Assembly (NCBI GenBank): GCA_016208495.1
Contig: JACQXX010000114.1
Coordinates: 1 to 35,768 of the forward strand
DNA: 35,768 nucleotides
DNA from: Acidobacteriota bacterium
GTDB taxonomy: Bacteria; Acidobacteriota; Blastocatellia; Chloracidobacteriales; Chloracidobacteriaceae
Direction: 5' to 3'
A model generated the notes under the pieces. That model did not search any database, was not told the DNA's origin, and was given only the letters and a program-made list of their open reading frames with translations. Positions within the stretch are counted from its first letter, which is position 1; each line of letters starts with the position of its first letter. The position numbers and the translations under genes are program-made. Positions 89-34,403 of the stretch are shown here, piece by piece.

Positions 89-1312
89 CTCTATTTAGAG
101 GGTGATCCCCGGCCAGGCCACTGGCCCAGAATGAGCTTGCCGGGAACTATCAAGTTCAGCAATGGCAGTTCTCCGACTTTGACTTCGACGGCTTCGTCCC
201 CAGGGACATACATATTGACGGCAGGTAACCCGGCGATTGTCGTGACCGGCACCTGGACCAAGGTGAGCGGGCCGGGAACGATTACCTTCAGCAATGCCAA
301 TTCTCCGACTTCGATGGCGACGGCTTCAGTCGCTGGGGAATACACTCTGCGCTGGACGATTACCGGCGGGAGTTGCCCTTCAAGTGATGACGTCAACATC
401 ACCTACACCCCAGGGCCGACCGCTACGGTAACCGGTGGTGGCACCATCTGTGCCGGGAACAGTTCCACTGTTACCGTCACCGTGACAGGTGGAACAGCAC
501 CCTACACGGTGACATTGGATAACGGCGGAGGGACCCAAAGCGGCTCCAGCCCGTTAACTTTTTCAGTGTTTCCGGAAGATTGGTCAACCACCTATTCCGT
601 GGAGTCAGGGACGGACGCTCTGGGTAGTTGTATCACCGGTAGCGGGAGCGCCACGGTCACAGTGAGCCCAGATTTCCCGGCCTATGCCGGGCCGGATCAA
701 ACCGTCTGCGGCTTGTTGGCGAGACTGGAAGGCTATTCAGAGGGTGAACCCCGGCCAGGCACCTGGCCCAGAATGAGCTTGCCGGGAACAATCAAGTTCA
801 GGAATGTCAATTCTGAGGCTTCGATGGCGACAGCTTCAGTTGCCGGGAAATACACCTTGCCGGCAGGTAACCCAGCAATTGTCGTGACCGGCACCTGGAC
901 CAAGGTGAGCGGGCCGGGAACGATTACCTTCAGCAATGCCAATTCTCCGACTTCGACGGCGACGGCTTCGTCCCCAGGTGCATACACCTTGCGCTGGACG
1001 ATTGCCGGCGGGAGTTGCCCTTCAAGTGATGACGTCAACATCACCTACACCCCAGGGCCGACCGCTACGGTGACCGGTGGCGGGACAATTTGCCTTGAGA
1101 GCATTTCCACCGTCACCGTCACCGTCACCGTGACGGGTGGAACTGCACCGTACACGGTGACATTGGATAATGACGGGGGGAGACAAACCGGCCCCAGCCC
1201 ATTAAGTTTTGAAGTGGAGACACCCTCAACAACCACCTATTCGGTGGAGTCAGGGGAGGACGCTCTGGGTTGTACAATCACCAGTAGCGGGAGCGCCACG
1301 GTTACCGTCATC
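89..1312 (+). repeat. Tandem 642-bp in-frame duplication inside the first gene
   Basis: Bases 89 to about 665 recur at 731 to about 1312, an offset of 642 bp (214 codons) over the first part of the copies. The second copy has a 6-bp expansion of the GTCACC type near 1120-1130, which adds two codons. Within each copy there is a shorter internal repeat: TIKFSN and TITFSN segments about 43 residues apart. The first copy continues upstream of the predicted start codon. Confidence 0.85.
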
Positions 1313-3007
1313 CTGACAACCGTCAATGCCGGACCTGACCAAACCATTTGCGCCGGCACAAGTGTAGTCCTTGCCGGATCGTTGACTGGTGGCGCGACAG
1401 GCCCGATATGGACCGGCGGAGGCGGAATCTTTGTTCCGAATGCAACCACACTGAATGCCATCTACACACCGTCAGATGAGGAAATTGCAGAGGGAATAAC
1501 GGCCTTGACGTTGAGAAGGGACAACCTGCCGGGAGTATGCGGGCCGATCAACGACACCATGTTCATCATCATCAATCCGGTTACCGTCCATGCCGGACCT
1601 GACCAAACCATTTGCGCGGGCACGAGTGCAATCCTGGCCGGATCCTGTGGCTATCAAGCAAACGGAACGTGGAGTGGAGGAACCGGAACATTCAGTCCGA
1701 ATGCGACGACGCGCGATGCCGTCTATACTCCATCAGCAGCCGAAAGAACGGCTGGAACGGTGACATTGACGTTCACGATGGACGACCCGCCCGCCGCCTG
1801 TGGACCGAACAGCGATACCATGACCATCACCATCAACCCGACAGCCAATGCCAATGCCGGACCTGACCAAACTATTTGCGCGGGCACGAGTGCCACTCTT
1901 GCCGGATCGTTTGACGGAATTGCCTACGGCTCGGAGTGGATCGGCGGAGGCGGCACCTTCATTCCGAGTGCAACCACGCTGAATGCGGTCTACACACCGT
2001 CAAGCGCGGAAATCACGGCTGGAAGCGTAACCCTGACTTTGCTCAACCCGGTCGGGCCTTGCCCGGGAGCCGTGGATTCGATGACGATTTTCATCGATTC
2101 CTGCCTCCCGCACATTGCGTTGCTGGTGGCGGACACCGCCAACAACCGGATTCAGGGGTTTGACGGAAGCAACTGGTCGGTCATCGGAGTCGGGACCCTC
2201 GGGGCCGGAAACGGTCAGTTCCGCGCTCCCGAAGCGGTCGCCTTCAGTTCGACGGGACAACGGATGTATGTGGCCGACACCGGCAACAACCGGATCCAAT
2301 GGTCAACCGATGGAGGCGTAAATTGGGCGAATTTTGCAACCAATGGAGTCGGATTCAATCAGGTCAAGGCGCCGCAAGGAGTCGCCCTGGATGCAGCCGG
2401 AAATCTTTATGTCGCCGACACCGGCAACAATCGGATTTTGCGCTTCAACGGAGGGATTCCGGGGATGGGAGTCCTGCTGGCCAACAAAGGAACTTCCGCC
2501 GGACAGGTGACCAATCCCAGCGGAATGGTCGTGGACAACAAATCAACTCTGTTCATTGCCGACACCGGCAACAATCGGGTTTTGAAAATCCTCAACGCCA
2601 GCACCGTCATTTCGACCAACACCGGAAAAGTCGTGGCTTCAAACGGGATCGGCCTGAACCAGGTCAGAGCGCCGCAGGGAGTCGCAGTTGACTCCAACGG
2701 CACGCTCTACATTGCCGATACCGGCAATTCCCGGATTCTGCGGTTTCTCAACGGGAATTCCAACAATGCAACCACTCTGGCCTTGAGCGGTACTCAACTT
2801 GGCCAGGTCAGACAACCTGAAGGCATCACCACAAGTCAGTTCACGTCAGGCTGGCTGGCTGGAATACCGATCATCGTGGTTGGAGACACCGCCAATAACC
2901 GGATCGTGGGCCGACCAATCGGCACCGGAAGCTGGTTATATATTGGTTCTCCCGACAATGTGGGGACAGGCATTGGGCAGTTCCGGGCACCATCCAAGAT
3001 CAGGTGA
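131..3007 (+). CDS. PKD-like/NHL-repeat surface protein, 5' end probably truncated
   Basis: Repeat protein of about 958 residues from the first ATG. Residues 1-400 hold two copies of a 214-residue block of PKD-like, Ser/Thr/Gly-rich beta repeats. Residues about 398-655 hold three domains of about 88 residues, each opening with AGPDQTICAGTS. Residues about 656-958 form an NHL beta-propeller with recurring VADTGNNRI motifs. Such proteins are usually secreted or surface-bound and adhesive, but no signal peptide is present. The ATG at 131 is doubtful: the frame is open from 11, after a TAG at 8-10, and the peptide encoded at 89-130 (YLEGDPRPGHWPR) matches the inside of the second block (YSEGEPRPGTWPR). 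The real N-terminus therefore lay upstream and appears lost or frameshifted. The C-terminus (QFRAPSKIR) matches that of the giant protein at 8989-21813. The stop TGA lies inside a GGTGACA repeat unit. Function beyond a structural or adhesive role is unknown. Confidence 0.8.
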   Translation: MSLPGTIKFSNGSSPTLTSTASSPGTYILTAGNPAIVVTGTWTKVSGPGTITFSNANSPTSMATASVAGEYTLRWTITGGSCPSSDDVNITYTPGPTATVTGGGTICAGNSSTVTVTVTGGTAPYTVTLDNGGGTQSGSSPLTFSVFPEDWSTTYSVESGTDALGSCITGSGSATVTVSPDFPAYAGPDQTVCGLLARLEGYSEGEPRPGTWPRMSLPGTIKFRNVNSEASMATASVAGKYTLPAGNPAIVVTGTWTKVSGPGTITFSNANSPTSTATASSPGAYTLRWTIAGGSCPSSDDVNITYTPGPTATVTGGGTICLESISTVTVTVTVTGGTAPYTVTLDNDGGRQTGPSPLSFEVETPSTTTYSVESGEDALGCTITSSGSATVTVILTTVNAGPDQTICAGTSVVLAGSLTGGATGPIWTGGGGIFVPNATTLNAIYTPSDEEIAEGITALTLRRDNLPGVCGPINDTMFIIINPVTVHAGPDQTICAGTSAILAGSCGYQANGTWSGGTGTFSPNATTRDAVYTPSAAERTAGTVTLTFTMDDPPAACGPNSDTMTITINPTANANAGPDQTICAGTSATLAGSFDGIAYGSEWIGGGGTFIPSATTLNAVYTPSSAEITAGSVTLTLLNPVGPCPGAVDSMTIFIDSCLPHIALLVADTANNRIQGFDGSNWSVIGVGTLGAGNGQFRAPEAVAFSSTGQRMYVADTGNNRIQWSTDGGVNWANFATNGVGFNQVKAPQGVALDAAGNLYVADTGNNRILRFNGGIPGMGVLLANKGTSAGQVTNPSGMVVDNKSTLFIADTGNNRVLKILNASTVISTNTGKVVASNGIGLNQVRAPQGVAVDSNGTLYIADTGNSRILRFLNGNSNNATTLALSGTQLGQVRQPEGITTSQFTSGWLAGIPIIVVGDTANNRIVGRPIGTGSWLYIGSPDNVGTGIGQFRAPSKIR

Positions 3008-3140
3008 CAGGGTGGACAAGGTGACAAGGTGACAAGGTGACAAGGTGACATCTGACAAGGTGACTATTTGACAGGATGACAACTGACAAGATGACCATTT
3101 GAGAAGTCATCATTTTGTCATTTTGTCAGATGTCACCTGG
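3004..3140. repeat. Octamer array with inverted arms between convergent genes
   Basis: Tandem GACAAGGT units start at the stop codon of the upstream gene, degenerate through the middle (GTCATCATTTTGTCA) and end in the inverted form. Bases 3043-3058 are perfectly complementary to 3123-3138 (16 bp). The neighbours are convergent, and the hydrolase-like stop at 3145-3147 abuts the right edge. A bidirectional terminator or RNA-stabilising hairpin is plausible. The element resembles the one at 8779-8988. Confidence 0.85.
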
Positions 3141-3144: not shown

Positions 3145-4419
3145 TCATCCCCCGGCTTTCATTTTCCCATCCACCGGTTTTCCAGCCAGAAACTCGCCAA
3201 TTGCCCGATCTAAATCCTCCGGGCTGTCTTCCGTCGCGTAGGCACGAGTATCTTCAAAGGTCACCAGTCTGAGTGGAAGTTTTGGGTTTTCAGTTTTGAA
3301 TTTTTCCCATTGCATACGATTCGCATTCCATCCGCCTGGAACCGTCATTTTGGCATCTGGAGAAGAAATGACGACCAGCATCGGGACGCTGAGTTTTTTG
3401 GCCGCTTCGGACAGGTCAGTCGTCATCAGTTCATAAAAGTATCGGTACATCACATCGAGCCGGGTTTTGGCCATCATTTCGGACAAGAGTTTCTGCCGGG
3501 CTTCGTGCTGACAGTAAAATGTTGAAAAACCAGACGCAAACTGGAGCGACTGGCTATAGGAACTGTTGGGCCACAGCGCCAGTGATGGCGAACTGTTGAC
3601 GATTTGAACTCGCTCCTGGTGAGTTGCCGGTTTGGTTGTATCGGCTGGGGAATTCATCGGGCTATACAACAGTCCATTGAGGTTCACAACGGCCCTGATC
3701 TGGTCTGGATGATCAAGGGCGGTTTTCATCGCCACATAGGCACCGGCTTGCTGGCCAACCAGCACCACACCGCTCAAGTTTTCCTTTTTGATCAGATTGA
3801 CAATGCCTTGTTCGATGGTGTTCCACCAATCCGTATGGCTGAAATTCCGAATTTTAGGACGCGGATACGGGGGCGTACCGGCAGCCCCAGGAAGCGTCAG
3901 GGCATACATTGTGTAAGCTTTTGCATTGCGGTTCATCAACGATTCATACACCGTCCAATCCAAACCGATGTCAGGGATCAAAATAACCGGAACTGGACCG
4001 GAACCGCGTTTTTCAATCTGGGAAAATTCGCCCGGCAAGACAACACTCCCTTTTGAAAGACCAACCGCTGCCTGGACGGTGCGATCAAGTCGGGTTTCAA
4101 ATCCGGCTGGCGCGCCCGTTAATTGGGCCAGTTTGGTCAATAGTTCCTTGTAGGCACGGGTGCGTTCTTCATCGCTGGCCATAAGTGAGTCCGCTTTGAC
4201 TTTGAGTCTGGTTAACACATCGAGGTCCTCCGCCGTGACCTTGTCCTGGATGCCCAAATAGGCAAGTTCATCTTCGATGATGGCCCGAATAACTCGGGGT
4301 GACGGAGCGTCGCTCCATGTGGGATCAAGCGTCGGGGCTTGTCCCAGGGCGCTGGCGGTCAACAGCAGAAAGAAAATCGGCAGAAAGACCATTCCTGCAA
4401 CTCGGCACCTGGTGGTCAT
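3145..4419 (-). CDS. Secreted alpha/beta-hydrolase-fold protein lacking catalytic residues
   Basis: Protein of 424 residues with a signal peptide at about 1-26, so probably periplasmic or exported. Residues about 143-410 follow the alpha/beta-hydrolase order: the first strand (VPVILIPDIG), the elbow strand (SGVVLVGQQAGAYVA), the acid strand (MLVVISSPDAK) and a C-terminal helix. The nucleophile elbow reads G222-Q-Q224-A-G226, so the usual Ser is Gln. The loop that normally supplies the His reads TRAYATEDSPEDLDRAIGEF, with no His where GHFP or GHxxxxE is expected. The acid Asp355 may remain. Enzymatic activity is therefore doubtful; a binding role or decay is as likely. The start is supported by GGAG about 7 bases upstream of ATG. 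The stop TGA abuts the octamer element shared with the convergent gene. Confidence 0.8.
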   Translation of the reverse strand: MTTRCRVAGMVFLPIFFLLLTASALGQAPTLDPTWSDAPSPRVIRAIIEDELAYLGIQDKVTAEDLDVLTRLKVKADSLMASDEERTRAYKELLTKLAQLTGAPAGFETRLDRTVQAAVGLSKGSVVLPGEFSQIEKRGSGPVPVILIPDIGLDWTVYESLMNRNAKAYTMYALTLPGAAGTPPYPRPKIRNFSHTDWWNTIEQGIVNLIKKENLSGVVLVGQQAGAYVAMKTALDHPDQIRAVVNLNGLLYSPMNSPADTTKPATHQERVQIVNSSPSLALWPNSSYSQSLQFASGFSTFYCQHEARQKLLSEMMAKTRLDVMYRYFYELMTTDLSEAAKKLSVPMLVVISSPDAKMTVPGGWNANRMQWEKFKTENPKLPLRLVTFEDTRAYATEDSPEDLDRAIGEFLAGKPVDGKMKAGG

Positions 4420-5527: not shown

Positions 5528-5643
5528 AGGGTTCAGGGTTCAGGGTTCAGGGTTCAGAAAAGACAAAAAAGACGAAAAGGACAAAAAGGACAAAAAGGAC
5601 GGAAAGGATTTGAATTCAAAAACCCTGAACCCTGAACCCTAAA
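5528..5643. repeat. Heptamer arms flanking nine-mers between kinase and regulator
   Basis: Four copies of AGGGTTC (5528-5557) face three inverted copies (5621-5643). 5528-5547 and 5621-5640 are perfectly complementary over 20 bp. Between them lies a degenerate GGACAAAAA nine-mer run (about 5575-5608). The kinase stop TAG is formed where the array begins (GTTTAGGG on the minus strand). A hairpin here would lower read-through from kinase to regulator or set their ratio. Confidence 0.85.
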
Positions 5644-6799
5644 CGGTATGAGTTTCACTCCTGGGAAGATCCTGCTCCGACAGAAACGGAATGGAAATCA
5701 GAGCGGAGGTGCCGCCTTCTTTGACGGTTTCAACCACGAAATCGTGATCTGAACCAAAACACGCCTTGAGCCGGGCCTGGACGTTTCGCAATCCAAGTCC
5801 TCTGGCTTCGGCCTGGGCAAAATCAGGCGGAAGACCGGGGCCATCGTCGTTGATTTGCAGACATAGCCGTCCATTTTCGCGCCAGGTGTTGATTTCGATT
5901 CGGGAAGCTGCAATGCGTTTTGAAATACCGTGTCGCACTGCGTTTTCCACCAGTGGTTGTAAAATCAGGTGTGGCACGCCGGCATCAAGCGTTTCCGGGG
6001 CAATATTTTTATACACGGTCAGGCGATCCTGAAACCGTATCTGTTCGATTTCAAGGTATTTTTCGAGGAATTCAAGTTCCAATCGAAGTGGAACCTGTTC
6101 ATTGCCTGATCGGTCCAGAACCGACCGCAGCAAATCGCTGAGTCCGGCGATCATCCGGACGGCGCCTCGGGTATCGTTTTCACGAACCAGAGCGGCAATG
6201 CTGTGCAGTGTGTTGAATAAAAAATGCGGGTGAAGCTGCATTTTCAGGGCCAGTAACCGTGCGTTGGCCAGTTGGGTTTCAAGTTGCGAGGTTCGCAGTT
6301 GTAGTTCGGCGGTTTGTCGCTCGCCTTCTCGCAACCGTTCGGCGTACACCATCGCGTGGCCAACTCCAACCAGCATCCAGTACACCATCGGTCCAAACAG
6401 CAGAGTAAAATTGATCATCCTGGCATAGCCGGCGAGAAACCCTTGAAGCGATTCAAAGATGCGTGGGTCTGGAATTGCCCATCGTGATACGAGGGTCAAC
6501 ACCAGCGCATAAACAAATCCAAAAACAATACCTGCCGCCAAATGGAATCCGAAGGCGCGTCCACGTCGTGGAACCTCAAAAGGAAACCGTCGGCTGAGAT
6601 CAAATACCAATGGCGTCGCCAGCGCCAGCGGCTCCCAGTACAGAAGTTGAAAGAACAATTCCCATCCCCAGGAATGGGGTCGAGGGCGCGCCGAAGGGCC
6701 GAATGTCACCTGGGCCACAATCAGAATCCCCGGTATCATCCACAGCGCACAAACCACAAGTTGCCGTTTCCAGGCTGGAGGAACAGAAGGGAAGATCAT
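5639..6799 (-). CDS. LytS/YehU-type membrane sensor histidine kinase
   Basis: Protein of 386 residues. Four hydrophobic helices lie in about residues 12-152, followed by a coiled linker at about 153-185. The His_kinase (PF06580) region contains LKMQLHPHFLFNTLHS; the phospho-acceptor is probably His192. The ATP-binding part has the N-box PLVENAVRHG (Asn286), the G1 box NDDGPGLP and the G2 box GLGLRNVQARL. These kinases pair with LytTR regulators, here the next gene on the same strand. No extracytoplasmic sensor domain is obvious, so sensing is probably by the membrane segment. The start ATG has no clear Shine-Dalgarno sequence, and the upstream GNAT ends 34 bp away, so read-through from that gene is possible. 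Confidence 0.93.
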   Translation of the reverse strand: MIFPSVPPAWKRQLVVCALWMIPGILIVAQVTFGPSARPRPHSWGWELFFQLLYWEPLALATPLVFDLSRRFPFEVPRRGRAFGFHLAAGIVFGFVYALVLTLVSRWAIPDPRIFESLQGFLAGYARMINFTLLFGPMVYWMLVGVGHAMVYAERLREGERQTAELQLRTSQLETQLANARLLALKMQLHPHFLFNTLHSIAALVRENDTRGAVRMIAGLSDLLRSVLDRSGNEQVPLRLELEFLEKYLEIEQIRFQDRLTVYKNIAPETLDAGVPHLILQPLVENAVRHGISKRIAASRIEINTWRENGRLCLQINDDGPGLPPDFAQAEARGLGLRNVQARLKACFGSDHDFVVETVKEGGTSALISIPFLSEQDLPRSETHTV

Positions 6800-6820: not shown

Positions 6821-6852
6821 CAGGGTTCAGGGTTCAGGGTTCAGGGTTCAGC
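6821..6852. repeat. Heptamer array (CAGGGTT) at the GNAT 3' end
   Basis: At least four tandem 7-bp units. On the minus strand they read TGAACCC, encode the last residues (LNPEP) of the GNAT at 6834 and supply its TGA stop. The array continues to 22 bp from the kinase start. A degenerate unit lies at 6803-6814. Confidence 0.9.
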
Positions 6853-7334
6853 CCGATGTCTTCCACCCCAGATTGCCATTCCAGAAAGTAATATACTTCG
6901 TCACCATCAATTTTCTGAAAACCAAGCTTGAGAAACCAGGGCAAAGCCGGGTTAAAGCTTTCGACATAGATTCGAATCGGTTTGTGGTTCTGGCGACTTT
7001 CGGTCATCAAATCAGCCATGATTTTCCTGGCAATGCCTTGCCGCCGAAACTCCGGTAAGAGGGCCAGGTCAATGATGCGAAGCTGGTTTTCCAGTCGCCC
7101 AAGGTAGAGCCGACCAACCGGCTGGGTATCGAGCAGGATGACAGAAAAGTCTCCGGTTGGATATTTGATCCGGTATTGTTCGGACTGCGCTTGAAACTGG
7201 CTCCATAAGAATGCCCGTTTCAGCGAGTCATCCCACGGAACACGGGCCATTTCTTCGGCCCGAGAAGCTGCAAAGATTTGAAACAAAAAGGATTCGTCAT
7301 CCTGCTCGATGGGTTTGAGATGGATTTCGGGCAT
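6834..7334 (-). CDS. GNAT-family N-acetyltransferase (copy 1)
   Basis: Product of about 166 residues from the ATG at 7334; an ATG at 7361 with GGGAAG ten bases upstream is an alternative. It has the GNAT fold: an N-terminal strand and helix (EIHLKPIEQDDESFLFQIFAA), motif D/A with the acetyl-CoA loop in LPEFRRQGIARKIM (R/Q-x-x-G-x-A), and the C-terminal strand FLKLGFQKI. It is a clear paralogue of the GNAT at 8258-8770 (shared QFQAQ, ALLPE and KP[IL]R motifs). The acetyl acceptor is unknown. The last residues LNPEP and the stop are read from the heptamer array, so the native C-terminus was probably replaced. The DUF6916 gene lies upstream on the same strand, as in other genomes where I recall these families together. 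Confidence 0.88.
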   Translation of the reverse strand: MPEIHLKPIEQDDESFLFQIFAASRAEEMARVPWDDSLKRAFLWSQFQAQSEQYRIKYPTGDFSVILLDTQPVGRLYLGRLENQLRIIDLALLPEFRRQGIARKIMADLMTESRQNHKPIRIYVESFNPALPWFLKLGFQKIDGDEVYYFLEWQSGVEDIGLNPEP

Positions 7335-7345
7335 ATTTGAGGGCT

Positions 7346-7551
7346 GGTACTTGGGGAGCATTAAAAAACAACTTCCCGTTTTGGTTTGGAGACAGGTATT
7401 TGGATTGAGCATCCCTGTTAGGCTGCCGTTCGGATAGCTGGTGGTTGCAAGGTTTTGGGAGCTACCACCGGGAAACGATTGTCTCTCCGGTCCATCTTCC
7501 CCGCGTCGCCCGCGCCCCCAGGAACTTATTTTTTAACGCTCCCCAAGCACC
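7346..7551. mobile_element. MITE-like element with long terminal inverted repeats
   Basis: Left end 7346-7368 and right end 7529-7551 are inverted repeats with two mismatches over 23 bp (core CTTGGGGAGC, then TTAAAAAA), and weaker match continues about 10 bp inward. It encodes nothing. It fills the interval between the DUF6916 stop and the GNAT start, ending about 12 bp before the GNAT ATG, so the GNAT 5' leader lies within it. No target-site duplication was clear. Confidence 0.65.
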
Positions 7552-7553
7552 AA

Positions 7554-7880
7554 TTAAGCGGTTGTTGCCGTGCCAGTTTCAGCATTTAAAAACTGGTAAA
7601 AGACTGCTTCATAGCTGATGCCATTCTGGTCACGGCTCACTGGAACAATAAAGATATCGAGTTCACCCATCACTGGATGCGAGAGGTGAAGGGTTTGCTG
7701 AATCAACTGGTACTCAAGCGGACCCAGAAAGGTCAGTGAAAACTCTTCACACGTGGGTTTTTCCTGCCGAACCTGGATGGTATTGAGTTTCAGGTTAATG
7801 GATTGGGTTTCACTGATTTGAACCGCAAAATCAGTATGGAGATGTTCGCGAAACTGGGCAAGGTTTAGATGGTTGGTCAT
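7554..7880 (-). CDS. DUF6916-family protein, cytoplasmic form
   Basis: Protein of 108 residues without signal peptide. The pattern matches DUF6916 as I know it: an opening LAQFREHLHTDFAV, a central FSLTFLGPLEYQLIQQTLHLSHPVMGELDIFIVPV, and the closing GISYEAVFYQF. The function of the family is unknown. It shares this pattern with the Tat-exported protein at 24181-24639 (FTLRFKG, YQFKHYALGILPMFIVP, YFNVIYNRI). It lies between two paralogous GNAT genes on the same strand. No ribosome-binding sequence is visible; the leader is a GGTTCAG heptamer array. Family assignment is from memory of the pattern. Confidence 0.75.
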   Translation of the reverse strand: MTNHLNLAQFREHLHTDFAVQISETQSINLKLNTIQVRQEKPTCEEFSLTFLGPLEYQLIQQTLHLSHPVMGELDIFIVPVSRDQNGISYEAVFYQFLNAETGTATTA

Positions 7881-7886
7881 AGGAAT

Positions 7887-7913
7887 GAGGGTTCAGGGTT
7901 CAGGGTTCAGGGT
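7887..7913. repeat. Heptamer array (AGGGTTC) in the DUF6916 leader
   Basis: Three to four tandem units just upstream of the DUF6916 start. Same unit as at 5528-5557 and 6821-6852, so one repeat family occupies three consecutive gene boundaries. No inverted partner arm was seen nearby. Confidence 0.85.
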
Positions 7914-7940
7914 TTTTGTTTTGTAATTCTTCGTTTCCTA

Positions 7941-8193
7941 AATTTCGCCCAAAATACTAACATTTTCCTCAGGTGTGGTCTTTGATGTGGGTGATTGAGC
8001 CAGAACTAAAAGACATAAAGGACATAAAGGACATATAAGGAGAGGTTGGAAGTTAGTTTCGTCATCGCGAAGGCTCGATTTCGGTGAACTTTGATTCCAC
8101 TCAATGACCTGGGCGATTCCCGATTGCGATTCGTGTCCTGAACCGGTCGGTGCTGGTCGTGTCTGGCAAGGTGATGATATTTTGGGCGAAATT
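7941..8193. mobile_element. 253-bp TIR-bounded element, MITE-like
   Basis: The 16-bp ends AATTTCGCCCAAAATA (7941-7956) and TATTTTGGGCGAAATT (8178-8193) are perfect inverted repeats. The interior has no credible gene but contains a GGACATAAA nine-mer run at 8008-8040. A related right end with the same order of parts (nine-mers, then about 100 bp, then GATGATAATTTGGGCGAAATTTAGG) lies at 32811-32964, which argues for a dispersed family. No transposase is nearby. Target-site duplications could not be identified by eye. Confidence 0.7.
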
Positions 8194-8230
8194 CAGATTT
8201 GATCCTTAGCTCTTGGAAAGTATTGATTTC

Positions 8231-8264
8231 TAACCACTAACCACTAATCACTAATCACTAATCA
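8231..8264. repeat. Heptamer array (TAACCAC/TAATCAC) at the second GNAT 3' end
   Basis: Five tandem 7-bp units, two of one variant and three of the other. The minus strand reads ATTAGTG, and the stop TAG of the GNAT at 8258 is part of the first unit. Just left lies GAAAGTATTGATTTCTAA (8216-8233), which recurs at 27944-27961 beside another TTAGTGG array. Confidence 0.9.
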
Positions 8265-8770
8265 TATTCTTCATTCTCAATTCTTCTGTATTCCATTTGG
8301 AAATGGGTGTCGGTTGAGCCAGTTTCACGAAAACCAAGCCGCTGGTAAAACCTGACTGCCGGGCTGTGTTTGAGTACCTGCAACCGCAGTGGTTTGTTTG
8401 TGGTGGTGGCTTCAGCGATCAATTGGTAGGTGATGTGGGCGCCAATTCCCTGGTTCCGGTATTCAGGCAGTAAGGCAATATCAGCCAGACGAATTTCACT
8501 TTCCTGACGAACCACAATCAACCGACCAATGGTTTTTCCTGCAAGTTCAATCACCGAATGTTCTGCCGCAGGGTATTGCATTCGATAAAAGTGGTGCTGG
8601 GCTTGAAATTGCATGGTGAAGAAAACCAGTTGGTGGGCTTCATTCCAACCAACCAGAGCGATTTCTTCAATCCGGGTGCTGGCATAGACCTCGATGAGGT
8701 CTGGCTGGTCCTCATCGGTCGCGGGCCGTAATTTGGGTTCCGGGTTTTTGGAAAAATCAGGAAAAGACAT
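8258..8770 (-). CDS. GNAT-family N-acetyltransferase (copy 2)
   Basis: Product of about 170 residues from ATG 8770. A longer frame back to 8908 exists, but its extra 46 residues (MSPCHPVTLSPCHLV and so on) are only a translation of the octamer array. GNAT features: EVYASTRIEEIALVGW, the acetyl-CoA loop LPEYRNQGIGAHITY (Q-x-x-G-x-G/A) and FYQRLGFRETG. It is a paralogue of the GNAT at 6834. Substrate is unknown. The C-terminal residues RIENEE are read from a dispersed repeat (8267-8286) whose identical 20-base copy is non-coding at 32968-32987, so the end of this protein is repeat-derived. It lies downstream of the giant gene on the same strand; the octamer hairpins lie between them. Confidence 0.88.
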   Translation of the reverse strand: MSFPDFSKNPEPKLRPATDEDQPDLIEVYASTRIEEIALVGWNEAHQLVFFTMQFQAQHHFYRMQYPAAEHSVIELAGKTIGRLIVVRQESEIRLADIALLPEYRNQGIGAHITYQLIAEATTTNKPLRLQVLKHSPAVRFYQRLGFRETGSTDTHFQMEYRRIENEEYD

Positions 8771-8778
8771 AAAGAACT

Positions 8779-8988
8779 GACAAGGTGACAAGGTGACAAG
8801 GTGACAAAGTGACATCTGACAAGGTGACAAGGTGACAAGGTGACATCTGACAGGGTGACATCTGACAAGGTGACAAGGTGACAGAGTGACAGGGTGACAG
8901 GGTGACATCTGACAGGAGAAAGTTCATCATTATGGTACTTTGTCACCTTGTCATTCTGTCAGATGTCACCCTGTCACTGGTCACCCTG
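8779..8988. repeat. Octamer array with 22-bp inverted arms after the giant gene
   Basis: Long run of GACAAGGT/GACAGGGT units with interspersed GACATCT, then a short centre (GTTCATCATTATGG) and an inverted right arm. 8894-8915 and 8956-8977 are perfectly complementary over 22 bp. The right edge supplies the TGA stop of the giant gene (AGATGACAGGG on the minus strand). The layout and centre match 3004-3140, which follows the paralogous NHL gene. Confidence 0.9.
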
Positions 8989-11900
8989 TCATCTGATCTT
9001 GGACGGGCTTCGGAACTGGCCGGTTCCGCTTCCAAGGTTGTTTGGTATGCCGACCAGCGACCAGGCGCCGCCAGCCAGGAGCTGGCCGACAATTCGGTTG
9101 TTGGAGGTATCACCAACTGCCATAAATGATTGACCAGCAAAGGTTCCAGTTTCAAACCGGCAAATGGTGACACCTTCCGGTTTGTTAACCTGGCCCATGC
9201 TCGAACCGGTCCCAGTTGTCATCACGGTTGCGGCTGCCGGATTGCCACCCGGATACGCCAGCACCCGTGAATTTCCAGTATCGGCCACATAGACGTTGCT
9301 GAAATTGTCAACGGCGACGCCTTCTGGATTTCGCACCTGGCTAGAGCCGCTTCCTGGGCCGGCCACAAAGGTCGTGCCCGTGTTTGGCGTTCCAACTGTG
9401 TTGCAGTTGGTGATCTTGATCACGCGATTATTGTCGCGGTCGGTAATGTACAGGTTAAAGTTGACGTCAACGGCGATACCACGCGGGCTGCGGACCTGGC
9501 CTCCGCCAACGCCACTGGTTGCCAGAACCACGGCTGGTCCGGGCGTTCCATTGTTAAACCGCAGAACGCGATTGTTTCCGGTATCAGCCACGTAGAGATT
9601 CCCGAGCACGTCCAGCGCCACGCCCTGTGGTGACTTCACGTTGCTGAGTCCAATCCCATTGCTCGCGAGCGTTGCCCAGGTGGTGCCGCTGTTGGTGGTG
9701 TACTGAACCCGGTTGTTGCCGGTATCAGCCACATAAATTCGAGTGGCTTCAAAGTTGGCGGTGACAGCTTCGGGCAAACTCAGACTGGTTGAACCTGAGC
9801 CTGGCGCCCCAGTTCCCAGCAGAACCACCCAGCTTGTGCCGTCATAGCGCTGAATGCGATGGTTTTGAGTATCAGCCACATACAGGTAAGACAGTTCGGT
9901 GGCATTGACCTGCAACGTTGCGGTTGCGGTGTTGCCGGTGCCGCCATTGGTCGAACTGACCGCACCCGTTGTGTTGGTGATGGTGCCAGGCAGGGAAGCC
10001 GTGACATCCACCGAAATGGTACAGTTCCCGTTGGCTGCAATCGTGCCGCCCGTGAAGGTAATCACCGAGCTTCCAGCCACTACTGTGACGGTTCCACCAC
10101 AGCCATTCACAATCGCCGGTGTCGTGGCCACGGTCAACCCTGCCGGGAGGTTGTCGGTAAAGGCCACGCCAGTGAGAGCTTCGGTGGCATTTGGATTGGT
10201 TAAGGTAAAGACCAGTGTGGTGGTTTCGTTGAGCAACACGGTTGCCGGGTTAAAGACCTTGGCAATCACCGGCGGTGCCACCACGGTGATGGTGTCGGGT
10301 GCGGTGTTGCCGGTGCCGCCGTTGGTTGAAGTCACGGCATTTGAAACGTTGTTTTTCACGCCAGCCGTGGCGCCAGTGACGGTGACGTTGAAGGTACAGG
10401 TTCCTCCGGGCGCAATCGTGGCCCCCGTTAAGGTGACCCGGTTGTTGGTTGCCGACGTCGTGACTGTTCCGCCACAGGCTGAATTTGAACCGTCAGCAAT
10501 GGTCAATCCGGCTGGGAGGTTATCCACCAGCCCAACACCGGTGAGGGATTCGGTGGTGTTTGGATTGGTGATGGTAAAGGTCAGGGTTGTGGTTCCGCCG
10601 AGTGGGATGGTATCCACGGCAAAGGCTTTGGACGCGACGGCTGGGGCAACAACTGTGATGCTGGCCGAAGCCGTGCCGCCTGTGCCCCCCTGGGTTGATT
10701 GAATATTACCAGTGGTGTTGTTTTGAACTCCGGCAGCAACACCCGTCACATTGACCTGGATCGTGCAGGAGTTGCCAGCCGTGAGCGACCCACCAGACAG
10801 ACTGATGGTTGAACTTCCGGCCACGGCGGTGACTGTTCCCGAGCAAACCGCGCTGATGTTTGGCGGTGTTGCCACAACCAATCCTGCCGGGAGCAAATCG
10901 GTAAACGAAATGCCATTCAGGGTCTGAGTGGTGTTCGGGTTGGAAATCGAGAACGTCAGCGTTGTAGTGCCACCCAGCGGAATCGTCAGCGCGCCAAATG
11001 CCTTGCCGATGGTCGGAGGCAGCGCCACGATCAATGACGCCGAAGCCGTGTTGCCGGTGCCGCCATTGGTAGAGGAAACCGTTCCGGTGACATTGTTCTT
11101 GACGCCTTCGGTCGTTCCGGTGACATTCACTGAAATCGTGCAGTTGCCGCTGGCTGCAATCGTGCCGCCACTCAGGCTGATCGAATTTGACCCGGCCACG
11201 GCTGTGACCGTGCCGCTGCACGCACCAACCACATTTGGCGTACTCGCCACCTGCAAGCCCGCCGGTAAGGTGTCGGTAAAGGCCACACCCGTCAAGGCAT
11301 CAGATGGATTGGAGTTGGTCAAGGTAAAGGTCAACGTTGTGGTGCCGTTGATCGGAATATTTGGTGCGCCAAACGCCTTGCTGATGGATGGCGGCGCCAA
11401 CACTCGAATTGTAGCCGTACCGGCATTCCCCGTACCGCCGTTGGTGGTGGTGACTGCCGACGTGGTGTTGTTCTTGGTTCCAGCCGTGGTGCCGGTGACA
11501 TCAACTGAAATGGTGCAGTTGCCGCTGGCTGCAATCGTGCCACCGCTCAGGCTGATTGTGCCTGACCCGGCGACCGCTGTGACCGTCCCACCACAGACGC
11601 CCGTGATGTTTGGCGTGCTGGCCACGACCATTCCGGCTGGAAGTGTATCACTAAAGGCCACACCCGTCAGAGCTTCGGTGGTGTTCGGGTTGGTGATGGT
11701 AAAGGTCAGCGTCGTTGACCCATTGAGTGGAATCGTCGGTGCGCTAAAGGCTTTGGAAATCGAAGCCGGCGCCACGACCGTGATGCTGGCTGAAGCCGTG
11801 CCACCTGCTCCGCTTTGGGTTGATGAGACATTTCCAGTGGTGTTGTTTTTCACCCCGGCGGTTGTCCCGGTGACGTTGACAGTAATGGTGCAGTTGCCGC

Positions 11901-14900
11901 CAGCCGTCAACGACCCGCCACTGAGTGAAATCGTTGAACTTCCGGCCACTGCCGTGACAGTTCCTGAGCACACACCGGTCACGTTTGGTGGTGTGGCCAC
12001 GACGAGTCCGGCGGGCAATGAATCAGTGAAGCTGACCCCGGTCAACGGAACCGTGGTGTTCGGGTTGGTGATGGTAAAGGTCAGCGTGGTTGACCCATCG
12101 AGCGCAATGGTTGGTGCGCCAAACGCTTTGGAAATAGTCGGCGGTGCTGCCACGGTAACCGTGGCGCTGGCCGTGTTGCCCGTGCCGCCATTGGAGGAAG
12201 TCACGTTGCCGGTGACGTTGTTTTTGACGCCTTCAGTCGTGCCGGTGACATCAACTGAAATGGTGCAGTTGCCGCTGGCCACAATTGAACCACCGCTCAG
12301 GCTGATCGAATTTGACCCGGCCACAGCGGTAACCGTGCCGCTGCACGCACCCACGACGTTTGGTGTCGCCGCGACGACCAAACCTGCCGGTAAGGTGTCG
12401 GTAAAGGCAATGCTGTTGAGTGGTTCGGTGGTGTTTGGATTGGTAATGGTAAAGGTCAGCGTGGTGGTGCCGTTGAGCGGAATGTTGCTCTGGGTAAAGG
12501 CTTTCGAGATGGATGGTGGCGCCACGACCGTGATCGAATCTGAAGCCGTGTTTCCAGCCGGGAGTCCAGCCGGATTGCTTGCTGTCACCGTTCCCGTGGT
12601 GTTGTTTTTCGCGCCAGCCGTGGTGCCGGTGACATCAACCGTGATGGTGCAGCTTCCTGCTGCGGCCAGTGAGCCTCCGCTGAGGCTGATGGTTCCAGAC
12701 CCGGCGACGGCGGTCACACTTCCTGAACAAACTCCGACGATATTGGCTGGCGTTGCGACGACCAAACCTGCGGGCAGGGAATCACTAAAGGCAATTCCTG
12801 ACAGCCCAACCGTCTGGTTCGGATTGGTAATGGTAAAGGACAGTGTGGTTGAGCCATTGAGTGGAATGGTGAGCGCGCCGAAATCTTTAGTGATGCTCGG
12901 CGGACCAACCACGGTCATTGACGCTGAAGCCGTCAGTCCAGGTCCGCTTTCCGTCGAAGACACATTGCCCGTGGTGTTGTTTTTCACTCCAATCGTGGTT
13001 CCGGTGACATTGACTGTGACGGTACAGGTGCCGTTGCCAGCCAGTGAACCACCAGAGAAGGAAATTGTGTCGGTTCCGGCAACAGCGGTAATCGTGCCGC
13101 CGCAGGTTGAACTGGCACCAGGTGTGGCTGCCACAACGACTCCGGCAGGCAGCGTGTCGGTAAAGGCAATGCCGTTCAGGGTTTGAGCCAGATTCGGATT
13201 CCCGATAGTAAACGTGAGCGTGGTCGTTCCGTTCAGCGGTAAGATGCTCACACCAAAGGCTTTGCTCAGGGTTGGCGGCATTGCCACCATCAGTGTGGCG
13301 CTCGCGGTATTGCCCGTGCCGCCGTTGGTGGAGGTGACATTGCCAGTCGTGTTGTTCTTGGTGCCCACAGTCGTTCCAGTCACATCCACGCTGATGGTGC
13401 AGGAACTATTGGCCAGAATGCTGCCTCCGCTGAGGCTGATGGTTCCAGAGCCGGCAACGGCGGTCACGCTTCCTGAACAGACTCCGACGATATTGGCTGG
13501 GGTCGCCACGACAAGCCCGGCAGGCAAATTGTCGGTAAAGGCCACGCCAGTCAGCGGTTCGGTCAGGTTCGGGTTGGTAATGGTAAAGGTCAGCGTGGTG
13601 CTGGTATTGAGCCCAATCGCGGGTTGGGCAAAGGCTTTTGAAATGGCTGGCGGGGCCACCACCGTGATTGAGGCATTGGCCGTGTTGCCGTTGGGCAATC
13701 CGGCTGGCGTGGTGGCGGTGACATTGCCCGACGTGTTGTTTTTCACGCCGGCAGTGGTGCCGGTCACGTCAACACTGATGGTGCAATTGCCTCCGGCTGC
13801 CAGTGAACCACCACTGAGACTGATAGTACTTGAACCGGCAACGGCGGTGACCGTTCCTCCGCAAACACCTGTCACATTTGGAGTTGAAGCCACGACGAGT
13901 CCGGCTGGGAGTGAGTCAGTAAAGACAATTCCAGAGAGCGCGACCGTTGTGTTTGGATTGGTAAGGGTAAAGGTCAGGCTCGTGGTGCCGTTGAGCGGAA
14001 TGGTTGCCGCACCAAAGGCTTTGCTGATGGTTGGCGGTCCAACCACGGTGACCGTGTCGGAGGCGGTGCCGCCGGTGCCGCCTTCGGTGGTGGTAATGGT
14101 CCCGGTGGTGTTGTTTTTGACCCCGATAGTCGTGCCGGTGACATTGACACTGAATGAACAATTCCCGGCTGGGTCAATCACGCCGTTGGTCAGGCTGATG
14201 GTGCCCGAGCCAGCCGTGGCTGAAATGGTACCGCTGCCACATCCGCCAGTGAGGTTTGGTGGCGTGGCGACTACGAGTCCAGCAGGTAAGGTGTCGGTAA
14301 AGCTGACACCCGTCAACCCAATCGTTGCGTTGGCATTGGTAATGCTAAAGGTCAGCGTGGTGGTGGCATTGAGCGGCAAAATGCTCACGCCAAATGCCTT
14401 GGTAAAGCCTGGCGGTGCCGCGACCGAAAGCGTGTCGCTGGCCGTACCGCCGGTGCCGCCTTCAGTTGAGGTGACATTGTTGGTGGTGTTGACTTTCACA
14501 CCAGCCGTGGTCGCCCGGAGCGTGACCGAAATTGAACAGGTTCCACCCGGCGAAGCAATCGCACCGCCGCTAAAGGTCAGGGTGGTGGCCCCAGCGGTTG
14601 GATTCCAGGTGCCGCCACAGGTCGTGTTGGCCCCTGGCGTCGTGTCAACTTCCAATCCTGCCGGCAGATTGTCAACGATGCCGATTCCGGTCAATCCGCC
14701 CGGATTGGCTGCCGGATTGGTGAAGGTGATCGTCAGCGTGGTGGTGCCGTTGAGCGGGATGCTATTTGGACTAAAGGACTTCGTCACCGTTGGCGGAGCA
14801 AAGACGTTGATGGTGTCCGTCGCTGTTCCACCAGTGCCGCCTTCAGTGGACGAAATATTTCCGGTGGTGTTGACGTGAGCCCCAGCCGCAATCCCGGTCA

Positions 14901-17900
14901 CTGTGACATTGAAATTGGCTGAACCTGCCGCCGCCACTGAGCCACCGGTCAGGGTAATCGTTCGGGTGGCTGCCGTGACCGTCAGAACTGAGCCGGCGCC
15001 GCAGACATTGTTGAACACGCCATCTGAAACACTCAATCCAGCCGGTAACACGTCGGTGAATGAAATACTGGTCAGGCCAACCGTTGGATTGTTGTTGGCC
15101 ACGGTGAAGCCAAGGGTTGAAGTACCGTTGAGGGCAATTGAATCAGGCGTAAAGGTCTTGGTGAGCGTCGCCGGACCAACGACGGTCAGGGTGGCGCTCG
15201 CTGTGCTTCCGGCGCCGCTTTCGGTTGAACTGATATTTCCGGTGGTATTGAGTTTGACGCCAGCGGTGGTGCCCCGGACATTGACGGTGATGGTACAGCT
15301 TGCGCCTCCGGCCAGCGTGACGCCGCTCAGACTGAAGCTGGTTGTGCCGGGTGTTGCCGTGACCGTTCCACCACACGAATTGACGACATTGGGTGTGGCG
15401 TCAATTTCAATTCCTGCCGGGAAGGTATCGCTCAAGCTGATGTTATTGAGTGTCAGTCCCGCGTTCGGATTGGTGATAGTAAATGACAGCGTACTCACGC
15501 CGCCAACCGGGATCTGATTGGGGGTAAAGCTCTTGGTCAAGGTTGGTGGTGAAGCAACCGTGAGCGTGGCGGTGGCGGTATTACCTGTTCCGCCGTTGGT
15601 CGAAGTCACATTCCCGGTGGTGTTGGTTTTCACGCCTGAAGTCGTGCCCGTGACATCCACGCTGATGGTGCAGTTGCCACTGGCGGAAATCGTGCCGCCA
15701 GACAGACTAATCGTGGTTGAACCAGCCGTGGCGGTAACGGTTCCAGTGCAACCATTTGAAATATTTGGAGTTCCCGCAACCTGCACCCCAGCCGGAAGAT
15801 TGTCGGTAAACGCCACTCCGGTCAGGCTGTCGCTTGGGTTGGAATTGGTCAGGGTAAAGGTCAGGGTGGTGGTGCCATTGACGGCAATCGTGTCTGGCGA
15901 GAAGGCTTTGGCAATCGAAGGCGGCGCCAAAACCCGGATCGAAGCCGACGCCGTGTTTCCGTTTGGCAACCCAGCAGGTGTTGTGGCCGTGACATTTCCG
16001 GTGACGTTGTTTTTGGTTCCGGCGGTGGTGCCGGTGACATCCACCGAAATAGTGCAATTGCCGCCAGCCGCCAGTGAACCTCCGCTGAGGCTGATGCTTC
16101 CTGAGCCTGCAACCGCCGTGACTGTGCCGCCGCACACGCCGGTCACATTTGGTGGCGTTGCCACGACCAGTCCAGCCGGCAACGAATCGCTAAAGGCAAT
16201 ACCGGAAAGCGCCACGGTTGAATTCGGATTAGTAACGGTAAAGGTCAGCGTGGTGGTGCCGTTGAGCGGAATCGTAGCGGCCCCAAACGCTTTTGAAATT
16301 TGCGGTGGAGCGACAACGGTCAATGTGGCCGTGGCGGTCGTCCCGGTGCCGCCTTCGGTCGAGGTAATCGTGCCCGTGGTGTTGGTTTTGACGCCGGCGG
16401 TGGTGCCGGTGACATCCACGCTGATGGTGCAGTTGGCGCCACCAGCCACAGTTACAGTACTGATATTGAGCGAAGTCGAGCCAGCCGTGGCCCCGGTAAT
16501 GGTGGCGCCACAGTTGTTGACCACGTTTGGCGTGGCGGCCACTTCGACGCCTGCCGGGAGCGAATCGGTAAAGCTGATTCCTGACAATGAGTTGCTGGCA
16601 TTGGGGTTGGTAATGGTAAAGGTCAGGGTTGAGGTGCCAGTGAGTGGAATCTGATTTGGTGTGAATGATTTCGCCAGTGTCGGCGGTGCCAAAACCGTGA
16701 TCGAGGCACTGGCGGTGTTGCCGGTGCCTCCGTTGCTGGAGGTCACATTGCCGGTGGTGTTGTTCTTGAGCCCGGCGGTGGTGCCTGTGACATCAACTGA
16801 AATTGTGCAATTGCCGCTGGCCGAAATTGAACCGCCGCTCAGGCTGATCGAATTTGACCCGGCGACAGCCGTGACGCTGCCGCTACAGGCGCCGACGACA
16901 TTTGGCGTGGAAGCCACCTGCAAGCCCGCCGGCAAGGTGTCGGTAAAGGCTACTCCCGTCAAACTGTTGGACGGGTTGGGGTTGGTCAGCGTGAAGGTCA
17001 ACGTGGTCGTGCCATTGAGCGGAATGGTGCTCGCCCCAAAGGCTTTTGAAATTGAAGGTGGTGACAGCACCGTAATTGATGCTGAGGCTGTATTCCCCTG
17101 TCCGCCATTGGTCGAATTGACGTTGCCCGTGACATTGTTTTTCACCCCAGCCGTGGTTGCCGTGACCGTGACATTGAGGATACACGAACCATTGGCGGCA
17201 ACCGTGGCCCCGGTTAACGAAATGGTGCTGGTCGCAGCAGTTGTGGTGAGGGTGCCTCCACACTGGCTGGTTGAAGAATCGGTTACGGTGAGCCCAGCCG
17301 GAAGCACGTCGGTCACGCTCACACCGGTCAAAGCATCAACCGTATTCGGATTGGTGATGGTAATCGTCAGCGTCGTGGTTCCATTGAGCGGCATCGTCGG
17401 TGCCGCAAATGCCTTCGAAACCTGCGGTGGCATTAAGATTCGCTGGACCAGCGTGTTGGAAATACTTCCATTTGAACCGGCGGCGCCATCATAGACCGCC
17501 ACGATGTTGTGGTCGCCAATGGTCAGTGATGACGTGGCAAACGTCGCGATCCCCGAAGTCAACGTCCCGCTTCCAAGTAAGGTTGTTCCATCGAAGAAGC
17601 GCACATTGGCGCCGTTGGGTGGTTGGAACCCGGTGCCGGTCACGGTCGCGGTAAACGTGACTGACTGACCCTGGCCTGCTGGATTGGCTGATGAGGTCAC
17701 AACCGTCGTCGTCTGGTTGATTGCCGTCGTGGTGGGATTGGCCGCACCGGCAATATCCGGGTCATCCGTCAACACATTTGAGAAATTCGACCCGGAAACA
17801 GTGCCTTGATTTAAAACCTGGGTTACCGCTGGCTGCGATGGTGAAATCTGGGGTGTCGGTAACGGGTTGTTGACCGTGACGTTAAACCGGATGATCACTG

Positions 17901-22267: not shown

Positions 22268-22792
22268 TTACGTTCGTGGCGGAAAGACCCCTTGCATGGC
22301 AATGCAGAAATAGAAGGTCAGATACGGTTGCATATTGTTATGGGGTTGATCGCCACCAGCCGGCGCCAGCGCCTCAGGGGCCATCATCCCAAGTGGACCA
22401 AAGGGTGGGTTTTGATACGGTGTCGCCCCAATCACGCGGGCAAAGCTTGTGCCCTGTGGGGTTGGGGCATTGGCTGGGCTCCCGGTGGCCATCAGCGCGT
22501 GGCTGTGGCCTGGAATTTCACTTTCCAGCAGGCTGACGGTTTCTGATCCACCAGTTTCGCCCAGGTCATGCAGCGAAAGTCCAGGTCCCTGGCCAGGTTG
22601 CATTGGTGCTCGCCCCTGAAGGTCAGGGAGCGCAAAGTTTGATTTCCCGTCTCCGCCGTATGTCGTTCCAAGCAAAGAGAAAAGCGCTGTATTTTGACTG
22701 ATCGGCAGCAACTGGCCATCGCACCAGGCCCAGCCTTTGGGGGGAAAGTTAAAGGGGAAAATCCGAATTTCAGCAACAAATGGGTCTGCCAT
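22268..22792 (-). CDS. Tail-collar domain protein A (microcystin-dependent-protein-like)
   Basis: Protein of 174 residues. The N-terminal Tail Collar domain is clear: GWAWCDGQLLPISQNTALFSLLGTTYGGDG, then FALPDLQGRAP. The C-terminal part has the family ending GGDQPHNNMQPYLTFYFCIAMQG. In phages this domain lies in tail fibres; chromosomal relatives (COG4675) have no firm role and are not proof of a prophage. GAGGAA lies 9 bases before the ATG. It is the last of three collar genes, 148 bp after gene B, and is closest in sequence style to C. Confidence 0.9.
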   Translation of the reverse strand: MADPFVAEIRIFPFNFPPKGWAWCDGQLLPISQNTALFSLLGTTYGGDGKSNFALPDLQGRAPMQPGQGPGLSLHDLGETGGSETVSLLESEIPGHSHALMATGSPANAPTPQGTSFARVIGATPYQNPPFGPLGMMAPEALAPAGGDQPHNNMQPYLTFYFCIAMQGVFPPRT

Positions 22793-22940
22793 AAGAAGGG
22801 TTCCTCGTGGGTTACGTCAATGAACTGGTGGGTGTCTGAAGCTCTGACACATATGGCAACGTGGTGCCAGTGGTTGAATTTTCAGACCCTTGAGTTCGAT
22901 TTCATTTCAAGCATGAAGTGCAGCCAGTGACGATTTCGGA

Positions 22941-23447: not shown

Positions 23448-23468
23448 AAGTAGGTCTCCTTATTGTAT

Positions 23469-32085: not shown

Positions 32086-32126
32086 AAAGTATTCATCCAA
32101 ATAGCGAAAGAGGATCAAAAACGCTC

Positions 32127-34209: not shown

Positions 34210-34220
34210 GTGAATACAAA

Positions 34221-34373: not shown

Positions 34374-34403
34374 TTTTTCTGCACTACTCGCTAGTTCACT
34401 CCC

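Follow-up and report, generated by a model that had tools for sequence, protein, structure and literature searches.

Short tandem-repeat arrays crowd the ends of genes in a 35,768-nucleotide contig of an Acidobacteriota bacterium (GCA_016208495.1, contig JACQXX010000114.1; this whole stretch is hereafter the window) and in the genome to which it belongs. We consider it probable that these are polar intergenic arrays which lie mostly behind native stop codons, encode the C-terminus in a minority of genes, and owe their placement to turnover together with selection. The array-coded ends are indeed a minority, ~3–4% of genes, and most arrays follow the native stop. A preliminary description of the window had taken the repeats as the source of stops and C-termini, and for most array-adjacent genes this is not supported.

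The window is contig C114 of a genome of 8.38 Mb in 177 contigs (G000), the sole genome in its genus; a second genome, G001, represents a sister genus of the same family. Our G000 sample of 1.09 Mb consists of the window and up to 20 kb from the start of each of contigs C1–C60 (60 of the 177 contigs); 40 contigs of G001 were sampled in the same way (0.67 Mb), and a further 0.4 Mb came from G003. Genes were called with our own codon-pair script, which gave 654, 421 and 311 genes, respectively. Arrays were called with Tandem Repeats Finder (TRF) at periods of 6–10 and scores of at least 36, and array edges are TRF edges. In the shuffle control, each array was re-placed randomly inside its own gap.

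Arrays lie close to stop codons. Among the 234 G000 stops that face an array-bearing gap, 39 have the nearest array edge at or before the stop (2.8 expected) and 91 have an array within 10 nt (28.6 expected); none of 1000 shuffles reaches either count. Random stop-to-array distances, which the preliminary description had named as a finding that would speak against it, are therefore not what the 1.09-Mb sample contains. Within 3 nt, 48 of the 234 stops have an array against 10.9 in the null, while the same count at starts is 5 of 218 against 7.6. An array at 0 nt from a start occurs once in 218 (1.9 expected), and one within 10 nt in 32 cases (20.6 expected, a count reached by 5 of 1000 shuffles). 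G001 behaves alike at stops: in the 20 contigs used here, 32 of 52 have an array within 10 nt, with 6.5 expected. The proximity is unchanged at TRF score cut-offs of 36 and 50, or when the first 2 kb of each stretch are removed. At a cut-off of 70 it persists in G000 (19 of 67, above all 300 shuffles, the highest of which gives 12), and in G001 the count no longer lies above every shuffle: 7 of 30 stops compare with a highest shuffle of 7, or 7 of 28 with a highest of 8 once the first 2 kb are removed. Stop proximity is real and well above chance.

Two classes of array can be told apart at gene ends. Arrays of the deep class begin upstream of the stop codon's last base by more than 6 nt, and those of the edge class begin between –6 and +10. 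Deep arrays are found at 19 of 630 genes in G000 and at 15 of 396 in G001, where they supply one to six whole codons and the stop. Nearly all of them (33 of 34) are built from units that carry a stop on the gene strand, whereas among edge arrays such units occur in 77 of 132 (p = 0.0025 for G000 and p = 0.00056 for G001, one-sided Fisher test). This is the pattern expected from the earlier suggestion that stop-bearing units make insertion into a gene end tolerable. Longer additions occur as well. In G001 (contig C221, locus L192), a histidine kinase has a tail of ~40 residues of the GSLGSLGS type that is read from a 9-bp repeat. In the window, the array-coded ends belong to two GNAT proteins, and other stops are touched or abutted by arrays:

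5621–5644, minus strand: AGGGTTC array pointing away from the kinase stop, with TAG common to stop and unit
5639–6799, minus strand: sensor histidine kinase (His_kinase, HATPase_c), its stop abutted by the array
6821–6851, minus strand: TGAACCC array, C-rich in sense, encoding the LNPEP-stop of GNAT1
6834–7412, minus strand: GNAT1, whose last five residues and stop are supplied by the array; probable true start 7334
8230–8264, minus strand: TGATTAG/AGTGGTT-type array containing the GNAT2 stop
8266–8286, minus strand: 21-base repeat encoding the RIENEE of GNAT2, with a non-coding copy at 32967–32987
8258–8770, minus strand: GNAT2, with a probable start at 8770 (the long open reading frame, ORF, is 8258–8908) and repeat-derived final residues and stop
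32785–32800, plus strand: GAATGAA units beginning within the stop of the HAD gene 32127–32786
32965–32992, minus strand: 14-bp repeat (ATTCTTC family) that includes the non-coding copy of the GNAT2 end
34960–35502, plus strand: CobO-type adenosyltransferase with the native C-terminus GIEF
35500–35554, plus strand: TAGTCAG array, the first TAG of which is the cobO stop

Much of the preliminary description of these sites stands. GNAT1 does end in LNPEP-stop read from TGAACCC units, and the stop of GNAT2 lies within a repeat unit. The repeat-coded RIENEE(YD) end of GNAT2 and its non-coding copy are also as described, except that the repeat measures 21 bases and not 20. The stops of the genes ending at 3007, 5639, 8989 and 35502 fall inside arrays or at their edges. 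The stop ending at 32786 does touch an array, albeit a weak one that scores under the genome-wide cut-off. Both GNATs probably start inside their long ORFs, and the starts listed above are those of our own gene caller.

The clearest truncation is found outside the window, in the SMC gene on G000 contig C59 (L122:12475–16080), the sole full SMC match in the assembly, where TIGR02168 is matched to position 1119 of 1181. The protein is cut at the Walker B motif and reads CIL-NPEP-stop from TGAACCC units. At the same point the G001 SMC reads CILDEVDAPLDD and continues for 63 residues in total after CIL, so that the G000 protein is 59 residues shorter. A search of the G000 assembly for the missing C-terminal part did not find it (best E 0.34). 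The TGAACCC array at the SMC end (region L122:12387–16080) reaches a gene that by eye resembles OsmC, and it is oriented as arrays ahead of starts usually are, so that the simplest reading is a deletion that fused the SMC gene body to the far arm. SMC is thus the one clear truncation, with 59 residues lost, unless the assembly is at fault. GNAT1 is put together in the same way.

How often an array has cost a gene its native end can be judged from homologues. For each deep-class gene we took the best-scoring homologue without an array-coded end, left its C-terminus unfiltered, and treated control genes alongside. Within the samples a usable homologue exists for 15 of the 34 deep genes, and the tail differences (minus where the array-coded protein is shorter) are –155, –117, –19, –6, –2, –1, –1, +1, +1, +2, +3, +3, +5, +42 and +63, the first two coming from multi-domain proteins that align only in part. 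To these, family searches contribute GNAT1 (+7), GNAT2 (+3), L119 (+2) and SMC (–59), the GNAT relative being just 30–32% identical. Together, 13 of 19 array-coded proteins end within 7 residues of the homologue, 4 are shorter and 2 longer. The control genes without an array near the stop (n = 315) divide into 183, 77 and 55, and the edge-array genes (n = 61) into 38, 9 and 14. The expectation that native C-termini were generally longer is therefore not supported. Among reciprocal-best pairs, ends agree within 2 residues in 11 of 22 comparisons of an array at or after the stop with no array, in 40 of 114 directional rows of no-array pairs (each pair counted twice), and in 2 of 5 comparisons of deep with no array (–6, +1, +1, +5 and +63).

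The same gene end has met different arrays in different genera, as seen for the GNAT gene in G000 and G002 and, by eye, for cobO in G000, G001 and G002. Past the last conserved strand of the GNATs, as placed by eye, the array-free G001 relative has 6 residues, GNAT1 13, GNAT2 9 and the G002 relative 8. The last of these has the tail QKRMKDEG and terminates within a GAAGGAT array, and is an acquisition with a different unit. CobO, in contrast, has kept its own end. In all 27 loci of its relatives (22 of them best matches, the other 5 more distant second matches) the protein ends in GIEF or GVDF before the stop, and in G001 and G002 other repeats directly follow that stop (by eye). Orthologues that end at the same residues, which the preliminary description had offered as evidence against itself, thus exist for CobO, but not for the array-coded class.

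Stop-codon usage divides along the same line. Where the array begins 1–25 nt after the stop, TAA is used in 35 of 96 genes in G000 and 26 of 50 in G001, compared with 200 of 490 and 135 of 315 genes without an array in range. Where the array overlaps the stop by more than 3 nt, TAA falls to 1 of 27 and 0 of 17. The strong form of the proposal, in which insertion of arrays into gene ends regularly supplants the native C-terminus and stop, draws on the 34 array-coded ends, on both window GNATs with their G002 relative, and on the 59 residues lost from SMC. It is met, however, by the 132 edge arrays against 34 deep ones, since most near-stop arrays start at or after the stop, by the normal stop-codon mix at arrays 1–25 nt away, by the unchanged CobO ends, and by array-coded proteins that are not shorter more often than controls (4 of 19 against 77 of 315). 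We regard the strong form as improbable; as a general rule it is refuted, and it stands for a minority.

The arrays follow a strand rule. In gaps with at least two arrays, the outermost arms are G-rich on the left and C-rich on the right in 100 of 124 cases in G000 and 51 of 56 in G001, and the reverse order occurs in 1 and 0, respectively. Edge arrays within 30 nt of stops are G-rich on the sense strand in 115 of 124 (G000) and 58 of 64 (G001), and arrays within 30 nt of starts are C-rich on it in 61 of 67 and 34 of 37. The G-rich strand thus generally reads away from the gene on both sides, giving the typical order gene, G-rich arm, spacer, C-rich arm, next gene. The AGGGTTC array behind the window kinase, which had been singled out as an exception in its orientation, follows this rule. 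The 16 deep arrays in the polarity count comprise 11 G-rich, 4 C-rich and 1 neutral, a looser rule for overlaps. Families without a GGG tract obey the polarity among G000 edge arrays: TAGTCAG in 10/10, AGTGGTT in 13/13, AAGGTGAC in 10/10 and AAGAATG in 7/7. The arms in the window, with two further arrays, are as follows:

3002–3095, plus strand: AGGTGACA array, G-rich arm, with the stop of gene 131–3007 inside its first unit
3110–3128, minus strand: opposite arm (TCATTTTG on the plus strand) on the side of gene 3145–4419; the whole gap folds with z –5.1
5528–5608, plus strand: G-rich arm of four AGGGTTC units, then AAAGGACAA units, in the gap between kinase and response regulator
7888–7914, plus strand: AGGGTTC array upstream of gene 7554–7880, its G-strand pointing away from the gene
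8778–8916, plus strand: TGACAAGG array, G-rich arm
8941–8991, minus strand: inverted arm TGTCACCC touching the stop of gene 8989–21813; the gap folds with z –7.3
27909–27936, plus strand: AGTGGTT array, G-rich arm
28346–28370, minus strand: inverted arm CACTAAC ahead of the stop of gene 28390–32118
32810–32843, plus strand: AAAGGACAT array
34220–34242, plus strand: AGCGAGT array 10 nt past the lpxC stop, G-rich arm
34243–34350, no strand: inter-arm spacer with no second copy anywhere in the assembly; by eye it includes a stem-loop that has a T-run
34352–34374, minus strand: inverted arm CTACTCG facing the end of the LysM gene; the whole gap folds with z –11.3

The two arms of a gap tend to match. 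With at most one mismatch allowed between units, the same unit is present in both arms of 53 of 100 G000 gaps (13.2 when shuffled) and 45 of 51 G001 gaps (10.6 when shuffled). Folding was computed for gaps of 80–230 nt, in subsets per class. The median z of same-unit gaps is –6.3 in G000 (22 of 23 folded) and –6.1 in G001 (22 of 35), compared with –1.7 (16 of 16) and 0.2 (4 of 4) for different-unit gaps and –1.1 (22 of 120) and –0.4 (22 of 99) for array-free gaps. With matched arms, the gap thus folds far better than shuffled sequence.

The G000 sample holds 496 merged arrays, of which 399 are intergenic, 42 straddle a gene end and 55 are intragenic. Periods of 7, 8 and 9 bp occur, with 7-mers making up 319 of the 441 intergenic or straddling arrays; these 441 use 95 distinct units, many of them variants of each other. 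Merged arrays number 454 per Mb in G000, 345 in G001 and 65 in G003. A pattern of three AGGGTTC units has 758 and 606 (overlapping) matches on the two strands of the whole G000 assembly, and the same pattern read backwards has none there. Of the 147 genomes of the class, 8 contain the pattern, with hundreds of matches only in G000 and G001; it is absent from G002 and from all seven genomes of genus g4. It was also observed in two genomes of another family of the class, G021 and G029 (44+23 and 4+2 matches), while the closer g4 and G002 lack it. Among 35 orthologue pairs of G000 and G001, an array is present at the stop in G000 only for 7, in G001 only for 4, and in both for 1. The arrays are mostly lineage-specific.

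We suggest that these features arise as follows. The placement of the arrays most likely results from their continual gain, loss and slippage, filtered by selection against gene damage; the native stop is usually kept. They are less close to starts than to stops, presumably because a ribosome site is needed there. A unit-coded end would result where an array end falls within the last codons of a gene, or where the gene body is joined by deletion to the far C-rich arm (as we propose for GNAT1 and SMC). Where the period is not a multiple of three, an in-frame stop should come within three units, so that the protein would usually retain its fold and gain 1–6 repeat-coded residues. Stop-less units occur almost only behind a native stop, and stop-less 9-bp units can yield long repetitive tails. 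Copying between arms may keep the hairpin arms alike. A role in transcription ends or in protection of mRNA 3' ends is possible.

In a rival explanation, the pairs are kept because they terminate transcription in both directions or protect mRNA 3' ends. Per kb of gap, arrays are densest between convergent genes, less dense between co-directional ones and sparsest between divergent ones (2.71, 2.31 and 1.09 in G000; 3.66, 2.02 and 0.56 in G001), matching arms form strong hairpins, and, in the text of Rehm et al. (2015; PMC4692102), transcripts start or stop more often at G4-forming repeats than at control repeats. However, the presence of arrays at orthologous ends is scarcely conserved (1 of 35 pairs), different-unit arms fold unremarkably, and arrays also lie near starts. 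We see it as possible but doubtful. That the arrays are parts of mobile elements resembling miniature inverted-repeat transposable elements (MITEs) or repetitive extragenic palindromic (REP) sequences, with a preference for sites just downstream of stops, is rather unlikely. Composite modules (GAATGAA units, AGTGGTT units, AAATCAATACTTTC) do recur after several stops (by eye), IS200-type transposase domains are present, and inter-arm spacers of at least 40 nt have copies elsewhere in the sample in 31 of 56 G000 cases and 9 of 40 in G001. Nevertheless, 31 of the 40 G001 spacers occur just once in the sample, array-free gaps are often repeat-bearing too (61 of 208 in G000, 28 of 155 in G001), one polarity extends across many unit types, and neither a target duplication nor fixed element ends have been established. 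One palindromic element per gap was not upheld as the only answer, the spacer at 34243–34350 being unique in the assembly.

Two further readings concern how arrays arise. That arrays seed on stops because unit and stop share a microhomology, as TAG does with AGGGTTC, is very improbable. TAG is in excess at stops touched by arrays (–3 to 0): it makes up 9 of 17 such stops in G000 and 7 of 14 in G001, compared with 92 of 490 and 56 of 315 genes without an array in range. This excess is expected from detection, because TRF extends into a stop only when it matches. In G000, moreover, arrays begin no more often at the stop than 3–10 nt past it, and seeding was not upheld for want of such a peak. 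We would also be surprised if DNA ends were the site of an active, polar addition of arrays, with the G-rich strand always as the outgoing 3' strand, as at telomeres, and subsequent head-to-head rejoining. If this were true, stop-bearing units would cap damaged gene ends, such as those of SMC and GNAT1, and supply new C-termini genome-wide. As for enzymes, reverse transcriptases seem an unlikely array source: a PF00078 search of G000 gave only three matches in two genes, one retron-like and one group II maturase-like. IS200-type transposases were rejected, since 7 of the 10 family genomes have matches to them whether arrays are abundant or scarce. Nothing resembling DRT10 could be recognised in G000, a result weakened by the use of a PADLOC copy (2023) that predates DRT10.

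Several points weigh against our preferred explanation of turnover and selection. Starts mildly attract arrays, with 58 of 218 having one within 20 nt (37.5 expected, reached by none of 1000 shuffles). Single arrays nearest a stop are less strict in polarity: reading away from the gene, 35 are G-rich but 21 are C-rich. The scarcity of C-rich-sense arrays downstream of stops is not clearly accounted for by selection alone, and same-unit arms around a once-only spacer are not explained by simple insertion of a repeated palindromic element. A site-specific conserved function is not indicated, because only one of the 35 orthologue pairs has an array at both stops. A usable homologue exists for just 19 of the 34 array-coded ends, many of them paralogues or multi-domain proteins, and the 4 shorter and 2 longer cases among them differ by more than 7 residues. 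Finally, gene calls come from our own script, edges from TRF, and the G000 sample is partial (60 of 177 contigs plus the window).

Part of this picture is already published for the heptamers of Xanthomonas and partly of Nostoc, namely the stop proximity, the strand rule and the inverted pairs (PMC4692102). The main text of that study describes G-rich heptamers, GGGAATC in Xanthomonas and GGGGA(C/T)T in Nostoc, that are mostly intergenic. Downstream of genes these are mostly on the coding strand and within 50 bp of the stop, including all stop-overlapping ones; upstream and near a gene they are mostly on the non-coding strand, and few lie between divergent genes. Convergent inverted pairs number 70 and 75 in two Xanthomonas and are few in Nostoc. 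Repeats of this type favour four units and G-quadruplex formation. The arrays described here share the dominance of heptamers, the mostly extragenic location, the strand rule, the inverted pairs and the scarcity between divergent genes. Unlike those repeats, they comprise many unit types, several without GGG (TAGTCAG, AGTGGTT, GAATGAA, TGACAAGG), with periods of 7, 8 and 9 bp and in another lineage, and array-coded C-termini are counted here, whereas the term 'c-terminal' is absent from the main text of PMC4692102. Because several unit families lack a GGG tract, G-quadruplexes cannot be the common cause.

Other systems are similar in part. In marine Beggiatoaceae, the TAACTGA heptamers are presented as intergenic, with 13 sets overlapping the stop of the upstream gene and forward repeats giving stops in all three frames (MacGregor 2015; PMC4679880). 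As portrayed there, however, they lie mostly nucleotides upstream of starts in one orientation, while here stops are crowded and other unit families are used; such start-adjacent placement is not seen here, where the count within 3 nt of starts stays below its null. The enterobacterial elements RU-1, RU-2 and RU-3 (2007; PMC2759123) are recounted as intergenic and fused to gene 3' ends, and in one amidase the fusion abolished the normal stop and lengthened the protein. They differ in being 103–168 bp long with longer additions, compared with tandem 7–9-mers here. Likeness to DRT10, as its preprint presents it (Tang et al. 2025; PMC12632851), is limited to the making of tandem-repeat DNA. Among open-licence articles in PubMed Central, considered partly by title and partly as the best matches of longer lists, we found neither an earlier account of such repeats in Acidobacteria nor any tally of C-termini encoded by arrays. 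The RU elements reportedly belong to the small mobile sequences of the Delihas type. The STRR heptanucleotide tandem repeats of filamentous cyanobacteria are likewise dispersed heptamer arrays with several unit types, and we liken them by description only.

What is new here is that many unit types obey one rule, that arrays encode C-termini under a stop rule, and that a further lineage is involved. In a bacterial lineage, protein C-termini are thus seen to come from short tandem repeats, and they do so under a rule that can be counted: nearly every array that enters a gene has a stop in its unit. The strand rule earlier tied to G-quadruplex repeats extends to units without GGG, and since these units obey it, polarity of a process or of a hairpin is favoured over quadruplexes.

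Some features of the window remain to be mentioned. The gap between kinase and response regulator is 125 bp and repeat-rich; by eye, the kinase stop overlaps the response-regulator start in 7 of the 11 homologous kinases listed (3 of them G000 paralogues). The tails of the kinase's relatives are unrelated, and the best HAD profiles stop short of the C-terminus of the HAD gene. The region 7349–7549, of ~200 bp, has near-perfect inverted ends (CTTGGGGAGC[A/G]TTAAAAA, by eye) and is MITE-like; it includes the beginning of the long GNAT1 ORF, whose first residues recur on two other contigs. The spacer at 27936–28345, between the AGTGGTT arms, is by eye a nested palindrome rich in GC, and the G000 sample contains 51 matches to this spacer. 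Gene 8989–21813 is one open frame of 4,274 residues with 375-bp internal repeats, and three adjacent phage tail collar-domain proteins are encoded at 22268–23939.

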